A DNA stretch of 64,000 bases from Acidobacteriota bacterium (GTDB lineage Bacteria; Acidobacteriota; Vicinamibacteria; Vicinamibacterales; UBA2999): positions 124,001 through 188,000 of the forward strand of contig JAUYQQ010000022.1 of the NCBI GenBank assembly GCA_030697165.1, given 5' to 3'. The position numbers and the translations under genes are program-made. The notes beneath the pieces were generated by a model. It saw only the letters and a list, made by a program, of their open reading frames with translations. It was not told the origin of the DNA and ran no database searches. Positions 9,842 to 27,463 of the stretch are shown one piece after another. How positions within the stretch are numbered: position 1 is the stretch's first letter; each line of letters opens with the position of its first letter.

Positions 9842-9975
9842 ATTAAAACTTGTTCATACAGGCGAATCCCTCGGTCCGCAGTAGCGCCGTGGACATCAGC
9901 TTGCATCATTTCCCGCTGAGAGCGGTCGGCGCAGCCTTCGCATGCCGACACTTCCCTGTTTACGGAACCGGCTTG
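9842..9975. promoter_or_regulatory. Bidirectional promoter module between GAPDH and the Met-rich gene
   Basis: In the 320-bp gap 9738-10058, box ATTAAAACTTGTTCAT lies at 9842-9857 on the GAPDH side. The inverted element TTCCC-TGTTTAC-GGAA lies at 9952-9967, followed by GGCTTG at 9970-9975, on the side of the Met-rich gene. The spacing (110 bp start to start) is the same as at 25918/26027 and 23611/23722. TTCC-N7-GGAA is also the geometry of CueR-type MerR operators, but no MerR gene is in the window. I see no gene in the gap. Confidence 0.6.
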
Positions 9976-16090: not shown

Positions 16091-18475
16091 TCATGTGCGG
16101 GTGCCCCACTTCCAGTTCCGAATCTCCGGCAGGTCCTGGCCGTTTGTCTCGATGTACTGCTTGTGCTCGATCAGCTTGTCCTTGAGCTGCCGCTTCAGGG
16201 AGCTGCCTTTCTCGCCGGTCTGCGGCAGGCGGTCGATGGTGTCCATCACGAGGTGAAAGCGGTCCAGATCGTTCAGCACCGTCATGTTGAAGGGCGTGGT
16301 GATGGTCCCCTCTTCCTTGTACCCGCGAACGTGGATGTTGTCGTGGTTGGTGCGTCGGTAGGTCAGCCGGTGAATCAACCACGGGTAGCCATGGAAGGCG
16401 AAGATGACTGGCTTGTCCTTCGTGAAGAGCGCGTCGAAGTCGCTGTCGCTCAACCCATGCGGGTGCTCGGTGTGCGGCTGCAGCCTCATGAGATCGATGA
16501 CGTTGACGACCCGGATCTTCAGGTCGGGCAGATGCTCGCGCATGATCGACACGGCGGCGAGCGTCTCCAGCGTGGGCACGTCGCCACAGCAGGCCATCAC
16601 CACGTCGGGCGCCACGCCCTGGTCGTTGCCGGCCCACGGCCAGATGCCGACACCCTCGATGCAATGCTTGACGGCCGCGTCCATCGTCAGCCACTGGGGC
16701 GCCGGGTGTTTGCCCGCGATCACGACGTTGACGTAGTGGCGGCTGCGCAGGCAATGGTCCATCACCGAGAGCAGGCAGTTGGCATCCGGCGGCAGGTACA
16801 CCCGAACGATCTCCGCTTTCTTGTTCATGACCACGTCGATGAAGCCGGGATCCTGGTGCGTGAAGCCGTTGTGATCCTGGCGCCAGACGTGCGAGGCCAG
16901 CAGGTAATTCAACGAGGCGATCTTGCGCCGCCACGGCAGGTGCAACGTGACCTTCAGCCACTTGGCATGCTGGTTGAACATCGAGTCGATGATGTGGATG
17001 AACGCCTCGTAGCAGTTGAAGAGTCCGTGCCGCCCGGTGAGCAGGTAGCCTTCGAGCCAGCCCTCGCACTGATGCTCGCTGAGCATTGAGTCGAGCACGC
17101 GCCCGCTGGGCGCGAGAAATTCGTCGTTCGGCGCGGTCGCGGCGTCCCACTGGCGTGTGGTCACTTCAAAGAGCGCTCCCAGGCCGTTGGAGACCGTCTC
17201 GTCAGGGCCGAAGACCCGGAAATTGCGCTGCTCGCTGTTGAGCGTCACCACGTCGCGCAGGAATGGTCCAAGCACGCGCGTGTCACCGATGCCGCGCACG
17301 CCCGGCGAGGGCACGTCGGCGGCGTAGTCGCGGAAATCCGGCATTCGCAAGTCGCGGAGCAGCATGCCGCCGTTGGCGTGGGGATTCGCGCCCATCCGTC
17401 GATCGCCTGTGGGCGCGAGTTCGGCCAGCTCCGGTTTCAGGCGGCCCTGCTCATCGAAGAGCTCCTCCGGCCGGTAGCTCCTGAGCCACTCTTCCAACAG
17501 CGCGAGGTGTTCGGGATGGGTGGCCGGGTCCGAGAGCGGCACCTGGTGCGAACGAAACGTGCCTTCAACCTGCAGGCCATCGACCGTCTTCGGACCCGTC
17601 CAGCCCTTGGGTGAATTGAGGACGATCATCGGCCAGCGCGGACGCACGAAGTTGCCCCCAGAGTGGACATTGTCGCGGGCGTCCCGCTGGATCGTCTTGA
17701 TGTGCTCCACGGCCGTGTCGAGCGTCGCCGCCATGGCCTCGTGCATCAGCATCGGTTCGTGGCCTTCGACGTAATACGGCGTCCACCCGTACCCGCGGAG
17801 TAACTGATCCAACTCCTCGCGGGTGATGCGGGCGAGGAGAGTCGGGTTGGCAATCTTGTAGCCGTTGAGATGCAGGATTGGCAGCACGGCGCCGTCGGTG
17901 ACCGGATCGAGGAACTTGTTGGAATGCCATGCGGTGGCCAGCGGAGCCGTCTCCGCCTCGCCGTCGCCGACGACGCAGGCGACGATGAGATCGGGATTGT
18001 CGAATACCGCACCGAACGCATGGCTGAGCGAATAACCCAGCTCGCCGCCCTCATGAATCGAGCCCGGGCACTCTGGGGAGGCGTGGCTGGGAATGCCTCC
18101 GGGAAAGGAAAACTGAAGAAAGAGCTTCCGAAGCCCGCCCTCGTCCCGGCTGATGTTGGGATAGACCTCACTGTACGTGCCCTCGAGGTACGTGTTGGCG
18201 ACAACAGCCGGGCCGCCGTGTCCAGGGCCGGACACGTAAATCATGTCGAGGTCGTACTTCTTGATGATCCGGTTCAAGTGCACGTAGATGAAGTTCTGCC
18301 CGGGGGTCGTGCCCCAGTGTCCCAGAAGCATGTGCTTCACATCCGCGAGCGTCAGTGCCCGTTTCAGGAGCGGATTGTCGTAGAGGTAGATCTGGCCGAC
18401 CGACAGGTAATTGGCGGCGCGCCAGTACGCGTCCATTTGGTAAAGCAGCTCCGGCGTGAGTGTGCGGCTATTCAT
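16091..18475 (-). CDS. xfp: Phosphoketolase (xylulose-5-P/fructose-6-P type)
   Basis: 794 residues, the usual family size. Thiamine-diphosphate enzyme signatures are present: [20 protein letters not shown] (about 51-70), [18 protein letters not shown] (about 81-98), a [28 protein letters not shown] region (about 125-152) and [18 protein letters not shown] (about 172-189). It splits Xu5P or F6P with phosphate into acetyl-phosphate plus G3P or E4P. Acetate kinase is 3 nt upstream in the same operon, so acetyl-phosphate would yield ATP and acetate. The route gives ATP without GAPDH, which is notable in a copper-ATPase operon. Confidence 0.95.
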
Positions 18476-18478
18476 GGT

Positions 18479-19684
18479 TCACTTCTCCCGAGTGGAGACC
18501 AGTTTGAGGACGCGAATAACGGACCTCGCGATCATCAGCTCCTCGTCGGTGCGGATGACCCGCACCTTCACGCGGCCGGCGGCCCGCGAAATCATCGGCG
18601 CATTCTTCGCATTGCGCTTCGGATCGAGCTCGATGCCGAAAAAGTCGAGGCCGTCGCAGACCCGCTTCCGGATGACCGGCGCGTTCTCGCCGATGCCTGC
18701 GGTAAAGACCAGCGTGTCCAGTCCACCGAGCGCGGCGGCGAACGAACCGATCCACTTCTTCGCCTGATAACAAAACAGCGCCACCGCTTCCCGCGCCCGC
18801 ACGTCACGCGCCTCGCGCGCGAGCAAGTCACGCAGGTCGGAGCTGGTCTCGGACACGCCGAGCAGTCCGGATTCATGGTTCACCATGCGCTGAAATCGCG
18901 CCGCGGTCATGCGCTCGGTGCGTGCGAGGTGGTACACCAGGCCCGGATCCAGGTCTCCCGTGCGGGTGCTCATCATCAATCCTGCCGTGGGCGTGAAGCC
19001 CATGCTCGTGTCAGTGCTTTTGCCGTTGCGCACGGCAGCCAGGCTCGCGCCGTTGCCAAGATGCGCGAGGATCACGCGGCCAGTCCTGGCCGCCGGGTCA
19101 CCGAGGCGAGCGAGTTCTTCCATCAGATAGGCATAGGACAAGCCGTGAAAACCGTAGCGTTGAACTCCTTTCGCTTCGTGGCGCCGCGGGATCGGCAATA
19201 ACGTGGCGACCCGCGGCATGCTGCGGTGAAACGCCGTGTCGAAGCACGCCACCTGGGGCAGCTTTCGATAACGCGACCGGAACGCCTCGATCAGCCCGAT
19301 CTCGCGCGGCAGGTGCTCGGGGGCGTACGGCGTGATCCGGTGCAGTTCCGCGAGCAGCTTCGGTGTGACCTTCTCCGGTTCGGAATGCGTCATGCCGTGC
19401 ACGACGCGGTGGCCCACGACTTTGACCGACCCGAACAGTGGCTGCGCCTCGAGCCAGTCGAGGAGCACACCCACCACGGTACGGTGGCTGACGGCGCCCA
19501 GGCGGCGGGAGACCTGCGGTGTGCCGGCAACGTCGGTGACGACGAGGTTCGTGCCGCTCACACCGATCCGATCGATCTTGCCATCGAGCTGACGCCGCAG
19601 CTCCCCCCCGGCCTCATACACGGCGAAGCGGATGCTCGACGAGCCGCCGTTGATCGTCAGGATGCAGGGCGGCGCAGCATTCAT
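18479..19684 (-). CDS. ackA: Acetate kinase
   Basis: 401 residues, full length. Motifs: LTINGGSSSIRFAVYE (about 9-24, nucleotide site), VVGHRVVHG (about 102-110), HLGNGASLAAVRNGKSTDTS (about 203-222), GLMMSTRTGDLDPGL and FTAGIGENAPVIR (about 319-331). It converts acetyl-phosphate and ADP to acetate and ATP. Coupled to phosphoketolase downstream (3 nt) and preceded by the CBS protein. A diverged copy of its N-terminal 24 codons occurs at 25767-25838. Confidence 0.95.
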   Translation of the reverse strand: MNAAPPCILTINGGSSSIRFAVYEAGGELRRQLDGKIDRIGVSGTNLVVTDVAGTPQVSRRLGAVSHRTVVGVLLDWLEAQPLFGSVKVVGHRVVHGMTHSEPEKVTPKLLAELHRITPYAPEHLPREIGLIEAFRSRYRKLPQVACFDTAFHRSMPRVATLLPIPRRHEAKGVQRYGFHGLSYAYLMEELARLGDPAARTGRVILAHLGNGASLAAVRNGKSTDTSMGFTPTAGLMMSTRTGDLDPGLVYHLARTERMTAARFQRMVNHESGLLGVSETSSDLRDLLAREARDVRAREAVALFCYQAKKWIGSFAAALGGLDTLVFTAGIGENAPVIRKRVCDGLDFFGIELDPKRNAKNAPMISRAAGRVKVRVIRTDEELMIARSVIRVLKLVSTREK

Positions 19685-20117: not shown

Positions 20118-22556
20118 TCATGCGGCCGCCTTCTCGCCGGGCTGACGAATTCCCGCCAGCTTGGTGCGCTTCAGCATCAGCGCATTGATAGCCACGACGA
20201 GGGTGCTGCCGGACATGGACAGCGCCGCGACCTCCGGACTCAGTACGAACGGATAGAACACACCGGCCGCGATCGGGAAGGCGATCACGTTGTAGCCAAC
20301 GGCCCACCACAGGTTCTGGTGCATCTTTCGCAACGTCGCCCGCGACAGCTCGATCGCGGCGACGATGTCATACGGGTCGCTCTTCATCAGCACGACATCG
20401 GCGCTGTCCATCGCCACGTCGGTGCCGGCGCCAATCGCAAATCCGACGTTGGCCTGAGTCAGCGCGGGCGCGTCGTTGACGCCGTCACCGACCATCCCGA
20501 CCTTCTTCCCCGTGGCCTGCAGCTCCTTCACCTTGTCGGCCTTCTGAGCCGGTAGCACGTCGGCCAACACGCTGTCGATGCCGAGATCCGCGGCGATCCG
20601 TTTGGCGGTGGCCGCGTTGTCTCCGGTCAGCATCACCACTTCGATCTTGCGTTCGCGCAGCTTGGCCACGGCGGCCTTAGAGGTGGGCCTGATCGCATCG
20701 GCGATGGCAATCAGGCCGATCACGCGAGCGGCCTGCGACACATGGACGACGGTGCGGCCATCGCCCTGCAGGCGGGTAGCCTGGGCCTCCAGCGTACCGA
20801 GCGAGAGCTTCTGCGTATCCATCAGCAGGCGATTGCCGAGAAACACCGTGCCGGCGGCGGTCTCGGCGCGCGCGCCCATGCCGTCGAGGCTTTCGAAGCC
20901 TGTCGGTGCCACGACCGTGAGGTGCGCGGACCGGCGCACGATGGCCTGGGCCAATGGGTGATCGGAGCCCTGCTCAACAGCGGCTGCGGCCGTCAGCAGC
21001 ACGTCCTCGCTGATCCCGTCTGCCGCAACGATTTCAACGACCTCCGGTTGGCCGACAGTGAGAGTACCGGTCTTGTCAAAGACGATCACGTTCAGCTTGG
21101 TGGCGTCTTCGAGCGCGGACGCGTTCTTGAAGAGAATGCCGTTCGCGGCGCCGAGGCCGGTCCCCACCATCACCGCCATCGGTGTGGCCAGTCCCAATGC
21201 ATCCGGGCAGGCGATCACGAAGACCGTGATCGTCAGCGTGACCGCGAACAGCAGCGGCTGACCAATCCACCAGAACCACACCGCAAAAGTCACGAGGCCG
21301 ACGACGATGGCGGCGATCACCAGCCACTGCGCGGCGCGGTCTGCAAGCAGCTGTGCCGGCGCCTTTGAGTTCTGGGCCTCTTGTACCAGCTTGACGATCT
21401 GCGCCAGCGCCGAATCCGCCCCGACCTTCGTGGCCTTGTAGCGAAAGGTGCCGCTCTTGTTGATGGTGGCACCGATCACCGTGGCGCCAGGCCCCTTCTG
21501 CACCGGCATCGACTCGCCCGTGAGCATCGACTCGTCGACCAGGGATTCACCAGTCTCGACGGTGCCGTCGACGGGAATCTTGTTGCCCGGCCGGATCACG
21601 ACAATCTCCCCCGCCAGCACCTCGGCCGTCGGCACTTCAGCCTCGGCGCCGTTGCGAAACACGGTCGCCATCGCCGGCGTGAGGTTCATCAACGCCTTGA
21701 TGGCGGACGAGGCCCCGGCGCGGGCCCGCATCTCCAGCCAGTGGCCGAGCAGGATGAACACCAGCAAAACGGCCACGGCTTCATAGAACTGCCCGCCGCC
21801 CTTGAAGATGAACGTGGCGCCGACGCTGAAGAGATAACCGGTGCCGACGCTCAGCACCACCAGCGCGGCCATGCCGAGGGTGCCCTTCCTGATCGCGCGC
21901 CAGGCAGAGACGAAGAACGGCCAGCTGGGATAGACGATGGCGAGCGTGGCAAAGCCGAAGAGCCAGACGTTGAGGTCAAGGCCAAAGGGTGGCGCGGGCG
22001 GGGTAAACATGCCCATCGGCGAGTAGACAAAGAGGGGAATCGTGAAGACCAGGCAGATCAGGAAACGGTTGCGCATGTCGCGCACCATCGACTCCAGGTC
22101 TCCGCCACTGTGGCCCAGTTCATGTGCCATGTCCGCCGACATGGCGGGCGGCGCGCCAGCCTTCGCGTGGCCCTCGTGACCCTTGGCAGTGGGAGTTGCG
22201 GGGGCGGGCACTTCGGCGGGAGCGGCCGGCGGCGGTTTCGGGGTCGCGGGCGCGGGCACGGCAGCAGGCGCACCGGCGACGGCTGGTGAGAGGGTGGTGG
22301 CTGGTGCCGCGTGGTCGTCGTGGTCGTCGCCGGAGGCAGGCACGGCCGGCGCGGACGACTCATACCCGGCTCGGCGCACCGCCGATTTGATATCGGCGAT
22401 CTCGAGTCGCGTTTCGTCGTAGCGGACGGTGGCGTTTCCGGCCGCATGATTAACGGTCACGCTTTCGACGCCGGGCACCTCGCCAATCCGCTGTTCCACG
22501 TCGTCCACGCTCCAGACCGACAGCATGGCGTGCACGTCAAGAACGCTGGTTTTCAT
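20118..22556 (-). CDS. P1B-type heavy-metal ATPase with CPD motif and Cys-less HMA domain
   Basis: 812 residues. N-terminal HMA-like fold (about 1-68) lacks the CxxC copper site ([18 protein letters not shown]). A linker of about 80 residues is Ala/Pro-rich with HDDH and GHEGH. TM domain from about 165, then TGES (about 344), the transmembrane motif [10 protein letters not shown] (about 446-455) where Cu pumps have CPC, phospho-Asp in DKTGTLT (about 492), SDHPLAQA, and [10 protein letters not shown]. The later helices read GYNVIAFP and SMSGST, close to the YN and MSxSS of Cu(I) pumps. A copper-family exporter is likely, but the CPD change leaves metal choice open. Confidence 0.85.
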
Positions 22557-22605: not shown

Positions 22606-23031
22606 TCAGGTCGATGGCGTCGACTCTTTGGAGCCTCCTTCAGGTGTTGATGGCGCCGCGGTCTTCGCCGCGGTCTCTTTGTTTAGTGGTGCGGCGCCTG
22701 TCGAAGCCGCGCCCACGTTGGCTGGTGCGGCCGGGGGCGTCTTCGTCGCAGCCGGTCCCTGGGTAGCAGGCGGCGCGCCTGGCTCTTTGTGGCCTTCGTG
22801 ACTGTCGCCCGGCGCGGCGGCGGGCGCGGCCGACTCATACCCACTCTGGCGCACGGCCGACTTGATATCGGCGACCTCGAGCCGGGTTTCGTCGTAGCGC
22901 ACGGTGGCGTTTCCTGCGGCGAAATTCACGGTCACGCTTTCGACACCCGGCACCTCGCCAATCCGTTGTTCCACGCCCTCCACGCTCAAGACCGACAGCA
23001 TGTCGTGCACTTCCATTACGCTCGTTTTCAT
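22606..23031 (-). CDS. Stand-alone Cys-less HMA-like protein with Ala/Pro tail
   Basis: 141 residues. Residues 1-68 are a near copy of the N-terminal domain of the ATPase downstream (shared [18 protein letters not shown] and FRYDETRLE-like wording, here [19 protein letters not shown]), again without CxxC (DMLSVLSV). The rest is low-complexity Ala/Pro/Thr with GDSHEGHKEPG. It looks like a partial duplication of the ATPase N-terminus that became a separate gene. It may act as a soluble partner or regulator of the pump. No signal peptide, so cytoplasmic. Confidence 0.75.
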   Translation of the reverse strand: MKTSVMEVHDMLSVLSVEGVEQRIGEVPGVESVTVNFAAGNATVRYDETRLEVADIKSAVRQSGYESAAPAAAPGDSHEGHKEPGAPPATQGPAATKTPPAAPANVGAASTGAAPLNKETAAKTAAPSTPEGGSKESTPST

Positions 23032-23584: not shown

Positions 23585-23737
23585 GTCGCCTACTCAACTT
23601 GGACAAGCCGTTCCCGCAAGTAGGGAAATGTCAGAATTGCAGAGCAGCGCACACTGCCTTCAGTGTCTCCTCATGCAAAGGGATGTCCCACGACACCTCG
23701 TGGGCGATGACATTCGTCTTCATGAAGAAGTATTAAT
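23585..23737. promoter_or_regulatory. Bidirectional promoter module upstream of the ATPase-phosphoketolase operon
   Basis: Within the 457-bp gap 23550-24006. On the minus strand: TTCCC-TACTTGC-GGGAA at 23611-23627, then GGCTTG (23604-23609), then a GAGTAGGCGAC block, as in the cus promoter. On the other side, box ATGAAGAAGTATTAAT at 23722-23737, 110 bp away. The rest of the gap (23738-24006) has no gene I can support; an open frame from 23779 resembles nothing known. Confidence 0.6.
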
Positions 23738-24006: not shown

Positions 24007-24402
24007 ATGTCCGATACTCCCGAACACGAGTTCCACCGTCGGCCGCACGCACCGCTAGCGGCGGACCCGTATATGGAATTCGACCTGCCGGCCGAGACCC
24101 ATCGCTTGCACACTGAGTCGACCTGGAGCGCAGGTCACAACGCCCGAACGCTAATCAAGTACGACGACCTCCGGGTCGTCCTGATCGCGCTCCACGCAAG
24201 CGCGCGTCTCCCCACACACAAGACCGAAGGGCGGATCTCGATTCACGTGCTGTCAGGCCACGTCCAGGTGAAGGCCGCAGAGCGGACGTTCAGTCTTCGC
24301 CCCGGCGGCTTGATCGCACTCGATCAGGGCGTGCCCCATGAGGTCGAAGCACTTGAAGAGAGCGCGTTTCTGCTCACGCTCGCCTGGCCGGGGCGGGGAT
24401 GA
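24007..24402 (+). CDS. Cupin-domain protein
   Basis: 131 residues, no signal peptide. Beta-barrel cupin pattern in the second half: ALHASARLPTHKTEGRISIHVLSGHVQVKAA (two segments around 60-90), then LRPGGLIALDQGVPHEVEALE (about 98-118). Motif 1 has His and Glu (H-K-T-E-G) and motif 2 PHEVEA, so a metal site may exist. The role is unknown; it could be a small-molecule sensor or stress protein. It lies downstream of the ATKAA box at 23722 but 270 bp away. Confidence 0.75.
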   Translation: MSDTPEHEFHRRPHAPLAADPYMEFDLPAETHRLHTESTWSAGHNARTLIKYDDLRVVLIALHASARLPTHKTEGRISIHVLSGHVQVKAAERTFSLRPGGLIALDQGVPHEVEALEESAFLLTLAWPGRG

Positions 24403-24459: not shown

Positions 24460-25761
24460 TCATAGCCAACCATTCGTGAAACCCGCCCGCCGCAGTCCCG
24501 TCACCACGTAGGGACACGCGCGCATCAGCCGCCAGAGCAAGCCCGAGCGGTAGTTCTCGCACATCAGCACCACCGGACCGACGTTGATCCCGAAATGGTA
24601 CGGCGAGGTCCAGCCGCGCCCGGCGTCGTCCTCGTGCGGAAAAGTCAGATTGAAGCTGCACCGAAGGCAATACTCCCCCGTGACCTGTGGATAGACGTCC
24701 TGAAAATGCTCAACGGTGGGCAGCACGATCTCCGGGGCGAACGGGAGCGAGGCAACCACCGCCCACGGCGCGACGGTTCCGTCGTCCGGGCCATACGGCA
24801 CGCCACGGGCGACGTAGTCAAAGAACGAGCGCTCGATGCCGTGAACCCGCTGCGTCGTCCTGCCCGGTCCGTCGCTCGCGGTCAGTCCCCAGAAGTGCTC
24901 GCCGTAGCCCACGAACTCAAGCGGGTTCCGGATCGCGTACGCCTGCTGGACGTAGGTCGCGCGGCGGCTGTTCTCGCAGTAGTCGATCCCCTTGTCTCGC
25001 GCAAAGGCATCCTGGATCCCGCGAAAGTCCACCCAGACGTGCGAGTACTGATGAATGAAGAGAGCGCCGCCGTAGAGCAGTTCGTAACCGAAAAGGTTTT
25101 TCCACTGATAGCTGGAAGTCCACGCGGCGTAGCTCTCCGTTGGCAGCGGATACGTTGGCGAGCCCAGACCGAGCGTGTACAAGAGCATGGCCTCGTCGTA
25201 GCCCTCCCATCGGTAGGGCAGAAAGCCGCTCTCAGGCTTCCACCCATGAGTGAGCGTCGCGCCGCCATTGCACGCCCATTGCCAGTCGGCGCGGCGATAA
25301 AGCGCGTCGGCCAACGTGCGAATCTCCAGATCGGCCTCTCCGTCCTGATCGAAATACGCCGCGGCGGCCAGCATCCCGGCCAACAGGAAACCGGTATCGA
25401 CGGTCGACAACTCGCACAAACCGGCGCGTGCTCCGGTGGTCATCTCGAGGAAGTGGTAGTAGAACCCTTTGTGACCGGTCATGCCGGGCGCCGTTCCCTG
25501 AGGGCTGGTCCAGAAGAACCGCAGAAGCGCGAGTGTTCGTTCGATCGCGTCGGCGCGTGTCATCCATCCCCGTTCGACGCCGACCGGATACGCCGCCAGC
25601 GCGAAGCCGACGGCCGCGATGCTCGCCGGGGCGCCAGGCTGTGTTCTGTCCGCCACCAGACCGTTGGCAGAATTGGTCTCGTTCAGGAAGTACCCGAAAG
25701 AATGACGCTGCAGCGCGTCCAGCCTCGTTTCGCCGAAGTCAGATCGAATCACATGAGACAT
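24460..25761 (-). CDS. Glucoamylase-like / GH144-type protein (glycoamylase domain)
   Basis: 433 residues without signal peptide. It shows the glycoamylase-domain pattern: RHSFGYFLNETNSANGLVADR (about 20-40), GHKGFYYHFLEMTTG (about 97-111), ELSTVDTGFLLAGML (about 117-131), a GFLPYRWEGYDEAMLLYTLGLG core (about 180-201) and WGLTASDGPG (about 290-300). Relatives act on beta-1,2-glucan or related sugars, commonly after export; this one appears cytosolic. Its start codon lies inside the end of an acetate-kinase N-terminal stub, so its promoter may be borrowed. Confidence 0.8.
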   Translation of the reverse strand: MSHVIRSDFGETRLDALQRHSFGYFLNETNSANGLVADRTQPGAPASIAAVGFALAAYPVGVERGWMTRADAIERTLALLRFFWTSPQGTAPGMTGHKGFYYHFLEMTTGARAGLCELSTVDTGFLLAGMLAAAAYFDQDGEADLEIRTLADALYRRADWQWACNGGATLTHGWKPESGFLPYRWEGYDEAMLLYTLGLGSPTYPLPTESYAAWTSSYQWKNLFGYELLYGGALFIHQYSHVWVDFRGIQDAFARDKGIDYCENSRRATYVQQAYAIRNPLEFVGYGEHFWGLTASDGPGRTTQRVHGIERSFFDYVARGVPYGPDDGTVAPWAVVASLPFAPEIVLPTVEHFQDVYPQVTGEYCLRCSFNLTFPHEDDAGRGWTSPYHFGINVGPVVLMCENYRSGLLWRLMRACPYVVTGLRRAGFTNGWL

Positions 25762-25838
25762 GGACGTGTCTGATACACCGCGAACTTGATGCTCGATGAG
25801 CCGCGATTGATCGCGAGGACTGAGGCGGGAGGCACCAT
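25749..25838 (-). pseudogene. Acetate kinase N-terminal stub (remnant of a second ackA)
   Basis: ATG 25838 opens a 29-codon frame ending in TGA. Its first 24 residues, with ASVLAINRGSSSIKFAVYQT, align with the start of acetate kinase (LTINGGSSSIRFAVYEA in the intact gene at 19684), and even the DNA is similar to 19616-19680. Homology stops at the point where the glucoamylase-like gene begins (ATG 25761, overlapping the stub). It lies 80 bp downstream of the ATKAA box, so a second copy of ackA probably once belonged to this regulon and was cut by a rearrangement. Confidence 0.75.
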
Positions 25839-25917
25839 GAGTTCAGCCCAGTGTTCCCTAGTGGGCATGGCGCCACTGTTCTAAATGGCACAACGCGAGA
25901 AGCGAAACCCGGGGACG

Positions 25918-26071
25918 ATTAAAACATCTTCATTAACCAGAATTGTCGAAGCTGGCGGCGCAGGTGGACGCCAGCTTGCAGCATGAACGACCGAGAGTCG
26001 CTGTGCGCTGCCAGCACATCTGGCTTTTCCCCACTTGCGGGAACGGCTTGACTGTTTAGGGTAGGCGCCCC
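25918..26071. promoter_or_regulatory. Bidirectional promoter module upstream of the cus operon
   Basis: In the gap 25839-26200. Box ATTAAAACATCTTCAT at 25918-25933 faces the ackA stub. Element TTCCC-CACTTGC-GGGAA at 26027-26043, with GGCTTG at 26045-26050 and a GGGTAGGCGCC block after 8 nt, faces cusC. A TTGCGG/TAGGGT pair with a 16-nt spacer there could be the -35/-10. Remaining 26072-26200 shows no gene; it would be the cus leader. Confidence 0.6.
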
Positions 26072-26200
26072 GCGGTCTCTGAGCACGGACCGTGGGGAAT
26101 TTCCAGCGTCCCGGCAGGAAAACTTCGCACGCGCTCATTGGCGGGGTGCAAGCGTTCGTCGCCGACGTCATGAGAGAGGCCCGCGATTGCGGTAATTACC

Positions 26201-27463
26201 ATGCAAGGTTCCACAGCCGGTCGATTCGTTGTCGTTCTCGTCATCGTGACGATGCTCCAGACGCCCTCTGCTGTCGCCCAGGCGACATCTGCGCTGCAAT
26301 CCCCGCTTAGCCTAGCCGACGTCATTCGCTTAGCCGGTGAACGCAGGGATGAGATCCACGCCGCCCGCGCGCGCACTCTCGCCGCCGAGGCGCGACCGGC
26401 CATCGTGTCAGCGCTCGCCGACCCGATGATCTCCCCCTCGCTTGATCACCTGCCCTTCATGCTGGACGGCGCTGATTTCAGCGTCACCATCGAGCAGCAG
26501 ATTCCGCTCTCCGGTATCCGCGGGCATCGCCGCGCGTCAGCGCTTGCTGATGTCGATCGGCTACGAGCTGAAGCCAACCGGACGACCCTCGATGTGGGGA
26601 TCCAGGCCGCCAACGGATTTCTAATGCTGCAGGAGCGTCGTCGTACGTCGGCCCTGGTCGACGAACAACTTGGCTTCGCGCGGGATGTCGTGACCGCGGC
26701 CAACGCGCGCTACGGCGGCGGCACGGCTCCACAGGCAGACGTGTTGCGCGCCGAGGTCGAGGTGGCACGCCTGGCGGCCTTCGCAAAGGCACTCGTCGCG
26801 GAAGTGCGGGGCGCCGAGGCAATGCTCAATGCGAGCCTCGCCTTGGATGCCGACCTGCCAGTGCCAGCACTCATCCCACTCGCTTTCGCTCTCCCGGTTC
26901 CGGACTGGACCGCCATCAAGACCGCGCTGGTCTCGCGGCCGGAACTGGTCGCCGGGCGCGCCGAGATCGCGCGCGCCGACGCTGAGGTGCTCGTGATGCG
27001 CGACATGTACCGCCCGATGGCGACTATCCGCACGGGACCGGCGTACACCATGGCCGAGGGCCGAGGCTGGATGGCGATGGTGGGCGTCAGCCTGCCGATA
27101 TGGCGCGGCAAGCTACGCGCTGGTGTCGCCGAAGCGCAGGCGATGCGAGTGATGTCTGAAGCCGACTTGCGAGCAATGACTCGAATGATCGAGGGCGATG
27201 CCGCCGTCGCGGTCAACCAACTCCGGGCCGCGTGGGATCGGCAAGCGGCGCTCGCCAGCGATGTCCTGCCGCGCGCCCGCATGGTCATCGAACCGGCCGT
27301 CGCCGGCTACGCAGCGGGCCAACTGCCACTCGTCAGCGTGATTGAAGCCGTGCAAGCTCTGTGGCGGGTCCAGGCCGACCTGATTGCCGCCGACACCGAA
27401 CTGGGTCTTGCCTGGGCGCGTCTCGGGCGGGCAATCGGATCGTACGAGGCGATCATCCAATGA
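26201..27463 (+). CDS. cusC: TolC-family outer-membrane efflux channel (CusC-like)
   Basis: 420 residues. A signal peptide (about 1-26, ending AVA-QA) is followed by two OEP repeats rich in long helices: SLADVIRLAGERRDEIHAAR (about 36-55), DVVTAANARYGGGTAPQADVLRAEVEVARL (second half of helix 2, about 163-192) and GYAAGQLPLVSVIEAVQALW (about 368-387). By family it is the trimeric channel that carries metal ions past the outer membrane. It is first in the operon and overlaps cusB by 4 nt. It lacks the usual lipobox Cys of E. coli CusC. Confidence 0.88.
   Translation: MQGSTAGRFVVVLVIVTMLQTPSAVAQATSALQSPLSLADVIRLAGERRDEIHAARARTLAAEARPAIVSALADPMISPSLDHLPFMLDGADFSVTIEQQIPLSGIRGHRRASALADVDRLRAEANRTTLDVGIQAANGFLMLQERRRTSALVDEQLGFARDVVTAANARYGGGTAPQADVLRAEVEVARLAAFAKALVAEVRGAEAMLNASLALDADLPVPALIPLAFALPVPDWTAIKTALVSRPELVAGRAEIARADAEVLVMRDMYRPMATIRTGPAYTMAEGRGWMAMVGVSLPIWRGKLRAGVAEAQAMRVMSEADLRAMTRMIEGDAAVAVNQLRAAWDRQAALASDVLPRARMVIEPAVAGYAAGQLPLVSVIEAVQALWRVQADLIAADTELGLAWARLGRAIGSYEAIIQ

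Follow-up and report, generated by a model that had tools for sequence, protein, structure and literature searches.

A probable remnant of a lost acetate kinase gene at the start of an acidobacterial glucoamylase gene

A reading frame of just 29 residues (MVPPASVLAINRGSSSIKFAVYQTRPCLM; 25749..25838, minus strand), which runs into the start of a glucoamylase-family gene, matches the N-terminus of acetate kinase (AckA) in profile searches. We consider it probable, from sequence comparison, that a second acetate kinase gene formerly stood upstream of the glucoamylase gene and was lost by deletion, all but its 5′ end of about 24 codons, which survives as this stub. All coordinates are those of the window, by which we mean the whole stretch of 64,000 nucleotides that was analyzed. 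Three sets of observations carry this reading: the homology of the stub to ackA, the two edges of its junction with the glucoamylase gene, and the ackA genes or remnants found upstream of the glucoamylase gene in relatives.

The acetate kinase piece and its junction

The stub matched both PF00871 in Pfam (positions 2–19, E = 0.01) and TIGR00016 in NCBIfam (positions 5–24, E = 6.6e-4), and these matches always fell at the very beginning of the profile. As the piece is short, a custom N-terminal profile was made from 17 other intact AckAs. Across the 64-kb window, this profile scored 50.6 bits for an intact ackA, 39.1 bits for the stub, and 6.2 bits for the next frame. Among 60 order-2 shuffles of the whole window, no frame exceeded 11.5 bits, which excludes chance similarity. 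The stub shares with AckA about 20 residues in order, including the N-x-GSSS-x-KF motif; the N-x-GSSS-x-K part of this motif is present as INRGSSSIKF. The sequence-only reading had matched residues 1–24 of the stub to AckA, which is right as to the family, while the extent is about residues 5–24. At the nucleotide level, comparison of bases and codons placed the stretch homologous to acetate kinase at 25770..25825 (minus strand; ASVLAINRGSSSIKFAVYQ), and the stop lies 6 codons beyond the end of this similarity. An in-frame ATG further upstream, at 25868, would add ten residues and bring the stub to 39. Unlike AckA, which is a kinase of ~390–400 residues with its catalytic residues, the stub has nothing beyond about residue 24 and cannot be a catalytic protein.

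The gene that follows (24460..25761, minus strand) encodes a glucoamylase-family protein of 433 residues (PF10091, E = 4e-85), and the homology with its relatives begins at the start codon. Specifically, nucleotide homology to two acidobacterial relatives halts at 25759/25760, which is the start codon, and the ackA homology has its edge at 25770. Only 8 nt (ACACGTCC; 25762..25769, minus strand) belong to neither homology; they separate the glucoamylase start codon from the end of the ackA-like stretch. These sharp edges are what a gene remnant would leave, and they bear out the earlier claim that the homology ends exactly where the next gene begins. The two reading frames also overlap, as had been proposed. 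The TGA stop of the stub (25751–25749) lies inside the glucoamylase frame, giving an overlap of 13 nt from the ATG at 25761, or of 4 nt if the GTG at 25752, which is conserved in relatives, is the start (GTGA; 25749..25752, minus strand).

Acetate kinase genes and remnants in relatives

The best comparison was provided by a metagenome-assembled genome (MAG) of the same acidobacterial order and another family (L041; JANLHE010000084, contig 23 of G147). Its locus contains, in order, a small His-rich ORF, an ackA remnant (MAAVRDSVLAINAGSSSVKFAVYQAATPTRLSLSGRASTGFLIDWLEAQETFAAVKVVGHRVVQ...), a HAD-GH65 gene, the glucoamylase gene, a gene for a rhodanese-domain protein, and a convergent cupin gene. 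In the window, the order is stub, glucoamylase gene, and the same convergent cupin gene (24007..24402, plus strand), whose orthologue is found at the same place in L041. The two glucoamylases are 88% identical in amino acid sequence, and in both loci a truncated ackA start precedes the orthologous gene. However, the remnant in L041 is longer, is cut further into ackA and is fused to the start of the HAD-GH65 gene, which stands between it and the glucoamylase gene; the two truncations therefore differ. The “internal deletion” noticed in this remnant was dropped as a candidate, as the order also has intact AckAs whose linker is similarly short (L018, L035).

Intact ackA genes were found in more distant clusters. 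In Actibacterium (L061), an intact ackA, a phosphoketolase gene, a mutase-like gene, a 6-phosphogluconate dehydrogenase gene, and the glucoamylase gene follow each other on one strand, and in Parvibaculum (L046) an intact ackA lies 3.4 kb upstream of the glucoamylase gene in the same direction. A related cluster on plasmid pPNAP02 of P. naphthalenivorans consists of pgm and genes for phosphoketolase, acetate kinase, and transketolase, followed by gnd and the glucoamylase gene, and has metal-efflux genes nearby (an RND efflux operon a few kb on). These clusters, two of them alphaproteobacterial, resemble the window in having ackA upstream of a glucoamylase gene whose product is 80% identical. 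They differ from it in that ackA is full length and that other genes, including those for phosphoketolase or transketolase, lie between it and the glucoamylase gene. A longer remnant (L041) or an intact gene (L046, L061) at the same place supports the earlier proposal of a rearrangement scar, although none of these directly adjoins the glucoamylase gene. As we found no genome in which an intact ackA directly adjoins this acidobacterial glucoamylase gene, the state before the deletion is a reconstruction. Nor was ackA universal at this place: in an equally close relative (L040), a CBS gene lies upstream of the glucoamylase gene, and the spacer between them contained no ackA trace beyond short chance words.

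From these comparisons, we infer the deletion as an event and the genes that it removed. The second ackA would have stood upstream of the glucoamylase gene, in the same direction, in a mobile cluster of the ackA–phosphoketolase–glucoamylase type. The deletion would have taken the rest of ackA along with the intervening genes, which are phosphoketolase and others in some relatives and HAD-GH65 in the closest, and would have brought the glucoamylase start codon to within about 8 nt of roughly codon 24 of ackA. What remained would be a short translatable frame that overlaps, at its stop, the start of the glucoamylase gene. The start left over from ackA may thus now serve glucoamylase translation through termination–reinitiation.

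The stub is not an isolated case: comparable deletion scars recur in mobile gene clusters for metal resistance and sugar metabolism. In another genome of the same order (G117), an ackA start (SVLAINRGSSSVKFGLLTLAP...) continues into the final 73 residues of the XFP C-terminal domain (XFP_C). Similarly, Hoeflea sp. M_23 (L047) carries a 139-residue ackA start that ends in a phosphoketolase start, and on pSinB, a plasmid of Sinorhizobium, what is annotated as a “hypothetical protein” of 92 residues corresponds to an ackA start, and the phosphoketolase gene behind it is N-terminally truncated. The latter region (L112, 3989–6624) contains the phosphoketolase gene without its N-terminus and split into two frames. 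Internal ackA pieces were retained in L050, and G028 may retain a C-terminal piece. Two further partial matches (G127, G088) were not counted as stubs, since in both the contig itself ends at the same point or no more than 2 bases further on. Such recurrence could be read as repeated rewiring of the clusters, in which ackA 5′ ends were kept because the ackA start supplies expression signals to the joined gene (glucoamylase, HAD-GH65, or phosphoketolase). We regard this as rather unlikely. The scars in G117 and pSinB were found using the stub itself as query, and the apparent preference for retention of the 5′ end is therefore partly a search bias.

Translation and transcription of the glucoamylase gene

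The stub could have been kept as a working leader cistron that drives the glucoamylase gene by termination–reinitiation, which is compatible with a deletion scar. We give this a substantial but less than even chance. A 4-nt overlap of stop and start is typical of translational coupling, and here the stub's stop either overlaps the conserved GTG in this way or lies within 13 nt of the ATG. Coupling requires overlaps or very short gaps, and in Escherichia coli the last 15 nt of the upstream gene were sufficient (PMC10666635); the overlap of stub and glucoamylase gene is of this kind. The glucoamylase gene also lacks a well-placed Shine-Dalgarno sequence of its own, and in relatives (L041, L040, L070) it often begins at, or a few nucleotides from, an upstream stop. 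However, the stub's start likewise has no well-placed Shine-Dalgarno sequence, and the GTG also occurs in relatives without a stub, so that reading frame alone could account for the GTGA overlap. Moreover, among the genomes searched the stub was seen in one only. As in the termination–reinitiation pairs described in the literature (PMC10666635), stop and start overlap here (GTGA or 13 nt), while the upstream cistron of this putatively coupled pair is a 29-residue remnant. On the spacing of the two frames, the glucoamylase gene may be translationally coupled to the stub.

In L040, a different mini-ORF (MNLGLAQPPPKRRDR; 2836–2883) with a strong Shine-Dalgarno sequence precedes the glucoamylase gene and ends 1 nt before its ATG, and is possibly another leader cistron.

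The sequence-only reading had further held that the stub keeps a promoter box 80 bp upstream and that the glucan-active enzyme was thereby placed under a copper-type promoter. Neither proposal was supported by what we found. The conserved palindromic box (TTTCCCCACTTGCGGGAACGGCTTG; 26026..26050) lies on the opposite, plus strand, about 190 bp from the stub, and faces the cusC-like gene (26201). It has the form TTCCC-N7-GGGAA followed by CGGCTTG, both here and before a DUF2933-like gene, where the only other full copy in the genome is found in the same orientation relative to its gene (23604–23628, minus strand). A degenerate copy lies at about 9950–9975 (plus strand), before a gene for a small secreted protein. 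The box is a candidate operator of an island-specific metal regulator, as judged by its sequence and placement.

The layout would still suggest that the stub and the cus operon have a copper-responsive promoter in common, as the stub and glucoamylase gene diverge from the cusC-like gene with the conserved box between them. We nevertheless think it improbable that such a promoter drives them, since the box is placed and oriented as a plus-strand element, as is consistent with the orientation of the DUF2933-like copy and with the degenerate copy near 9970, and no minus-strand promoter is recognizable. A search of 25700–26250 for sigma-70-type sites, the only promoter type covered, yielded no sigma-70-like site for the stub; the best minus-strand candidate was a weak one (TCGACA-19-TTTTAA, 25949–25919, 8/12 matches). 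In relatives, no intact ackA was found downstream of a cus promoter, next to the cus operon, where the sequence-only reading had suggested looking for one.

Other origins and the island context

The island has an intact ackA of its own (18479..19684, minus strand; 401 residues), with a phosphoketolase (XFP) gene directly downstream (16091..18475, minus strand). It lies 6 kb from the stub, inside the window, and the stub might instead be a short duplicate of its 5′ end, moved by local rearrangement. Their location in the same island and their 80% nucleotide identity over 50 nt would fit such a duplication. However, profile and codon comparison indicated that this gene is not the source. Only 12 of 18 residues are common to the stub and the local gene, against 16 of 18 for the L041 remnant, and the 6 that differ mostly agree with AckAs of other lineages: SVLAIN..KFAVYQ is found in L041, and Asn-Arg in G117. 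For Asn-Arg, the stub and the G117 remnant also use the same unusual codons, AAT CGC, and the two pieces differ at 10 of 54 nt. In addition, the sequence upstream of the stub (25839–26200) has no match to the leader of the local ackA; in comparisons of this region with other loci, the plus-strand box was the sole match. We therefore think a local duplication unlikely, and lean toward a stub that is not a simple copy of the local gene, with the caveat that 18 codons give a lean and not proof.

The synonymous differences bear on the age of the ackA pieces. The stub and the L041 remnant differ synonymously in 11 of 18 codons, and the glucoamylase genes of the window and L041 in 99 of 433 codons. 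As the ackA pieces are the more diverged, they need not have travelled with the glucoamylase genes for equal time, and they may be older than, or differently sourced from, the glucoamylase genes that they precede. The contrast is not decisive, as 4.6% of 54-nt stretches of the glucoamylase genes are as diverged as the ackA pieces.

Two other explanations were found to be weaker than a local duplication. An assembly chimera at the junction is very improbable, given a contig of 571 kb in a genome of 23 contigs rated 100% complete, and similar ackA scars in unrelated assemblies, one of which is a complete plasmid. Least credible of all is a conserved leader peptide or chance similarity that was never ackA: the ORF is short (29 residues) and falls under the Pfam cut-off, but its profile score far exceeds the shuffle maximum, and relatives have ackA genes or remnants upstream of the glucoamylase gene. 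The case that the sequence-only reading named as refuting, relatives with this short ORF and never an ackA there, was sought in 193 genomes of the class and 396 of the phylum; no identical ORF turned up, which makes a conserved leader peptide unlikely.

Several features of the surrounding island were recorded as well. A gene for a tyrosine-recombinase family protein (PF00589; 38582–39769, minus strand) lies in the metal-resistance region, which would fit a mobile island. The copper-type P-type ATPase encoded at 20118–22556 (minus strand) has CPD in its transmembrane metal site, where CPC is usual. Just upstream of its gene lies a free-standing HMA-domain ORF of 141 aa (22606–23031, minus strand), which matches the N-terminal HMA domain of that ATPase (22343–22556, minus strand) at 86% over 224 nt and is a diverged copy of it. 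We found no literature that joins phosphoketolase, acetate kinase, a genomic island, and copper resistance all together.

Read as a deletion scar, the stub is real, yet it is ordinary genome decay. It documents the loss of acetate kinase from a mobile phosphoketolase/acetate kinase/glucoamylase cluster whose downstream gene has kept an open frame, and it illustrates how comparing neighborhoods can reveal the lost gene behind a very short ORF. Should the stub prove to drive the glucoamylase gene through coupling, it would be a modest case of a deletion scar that became a leader cistron.
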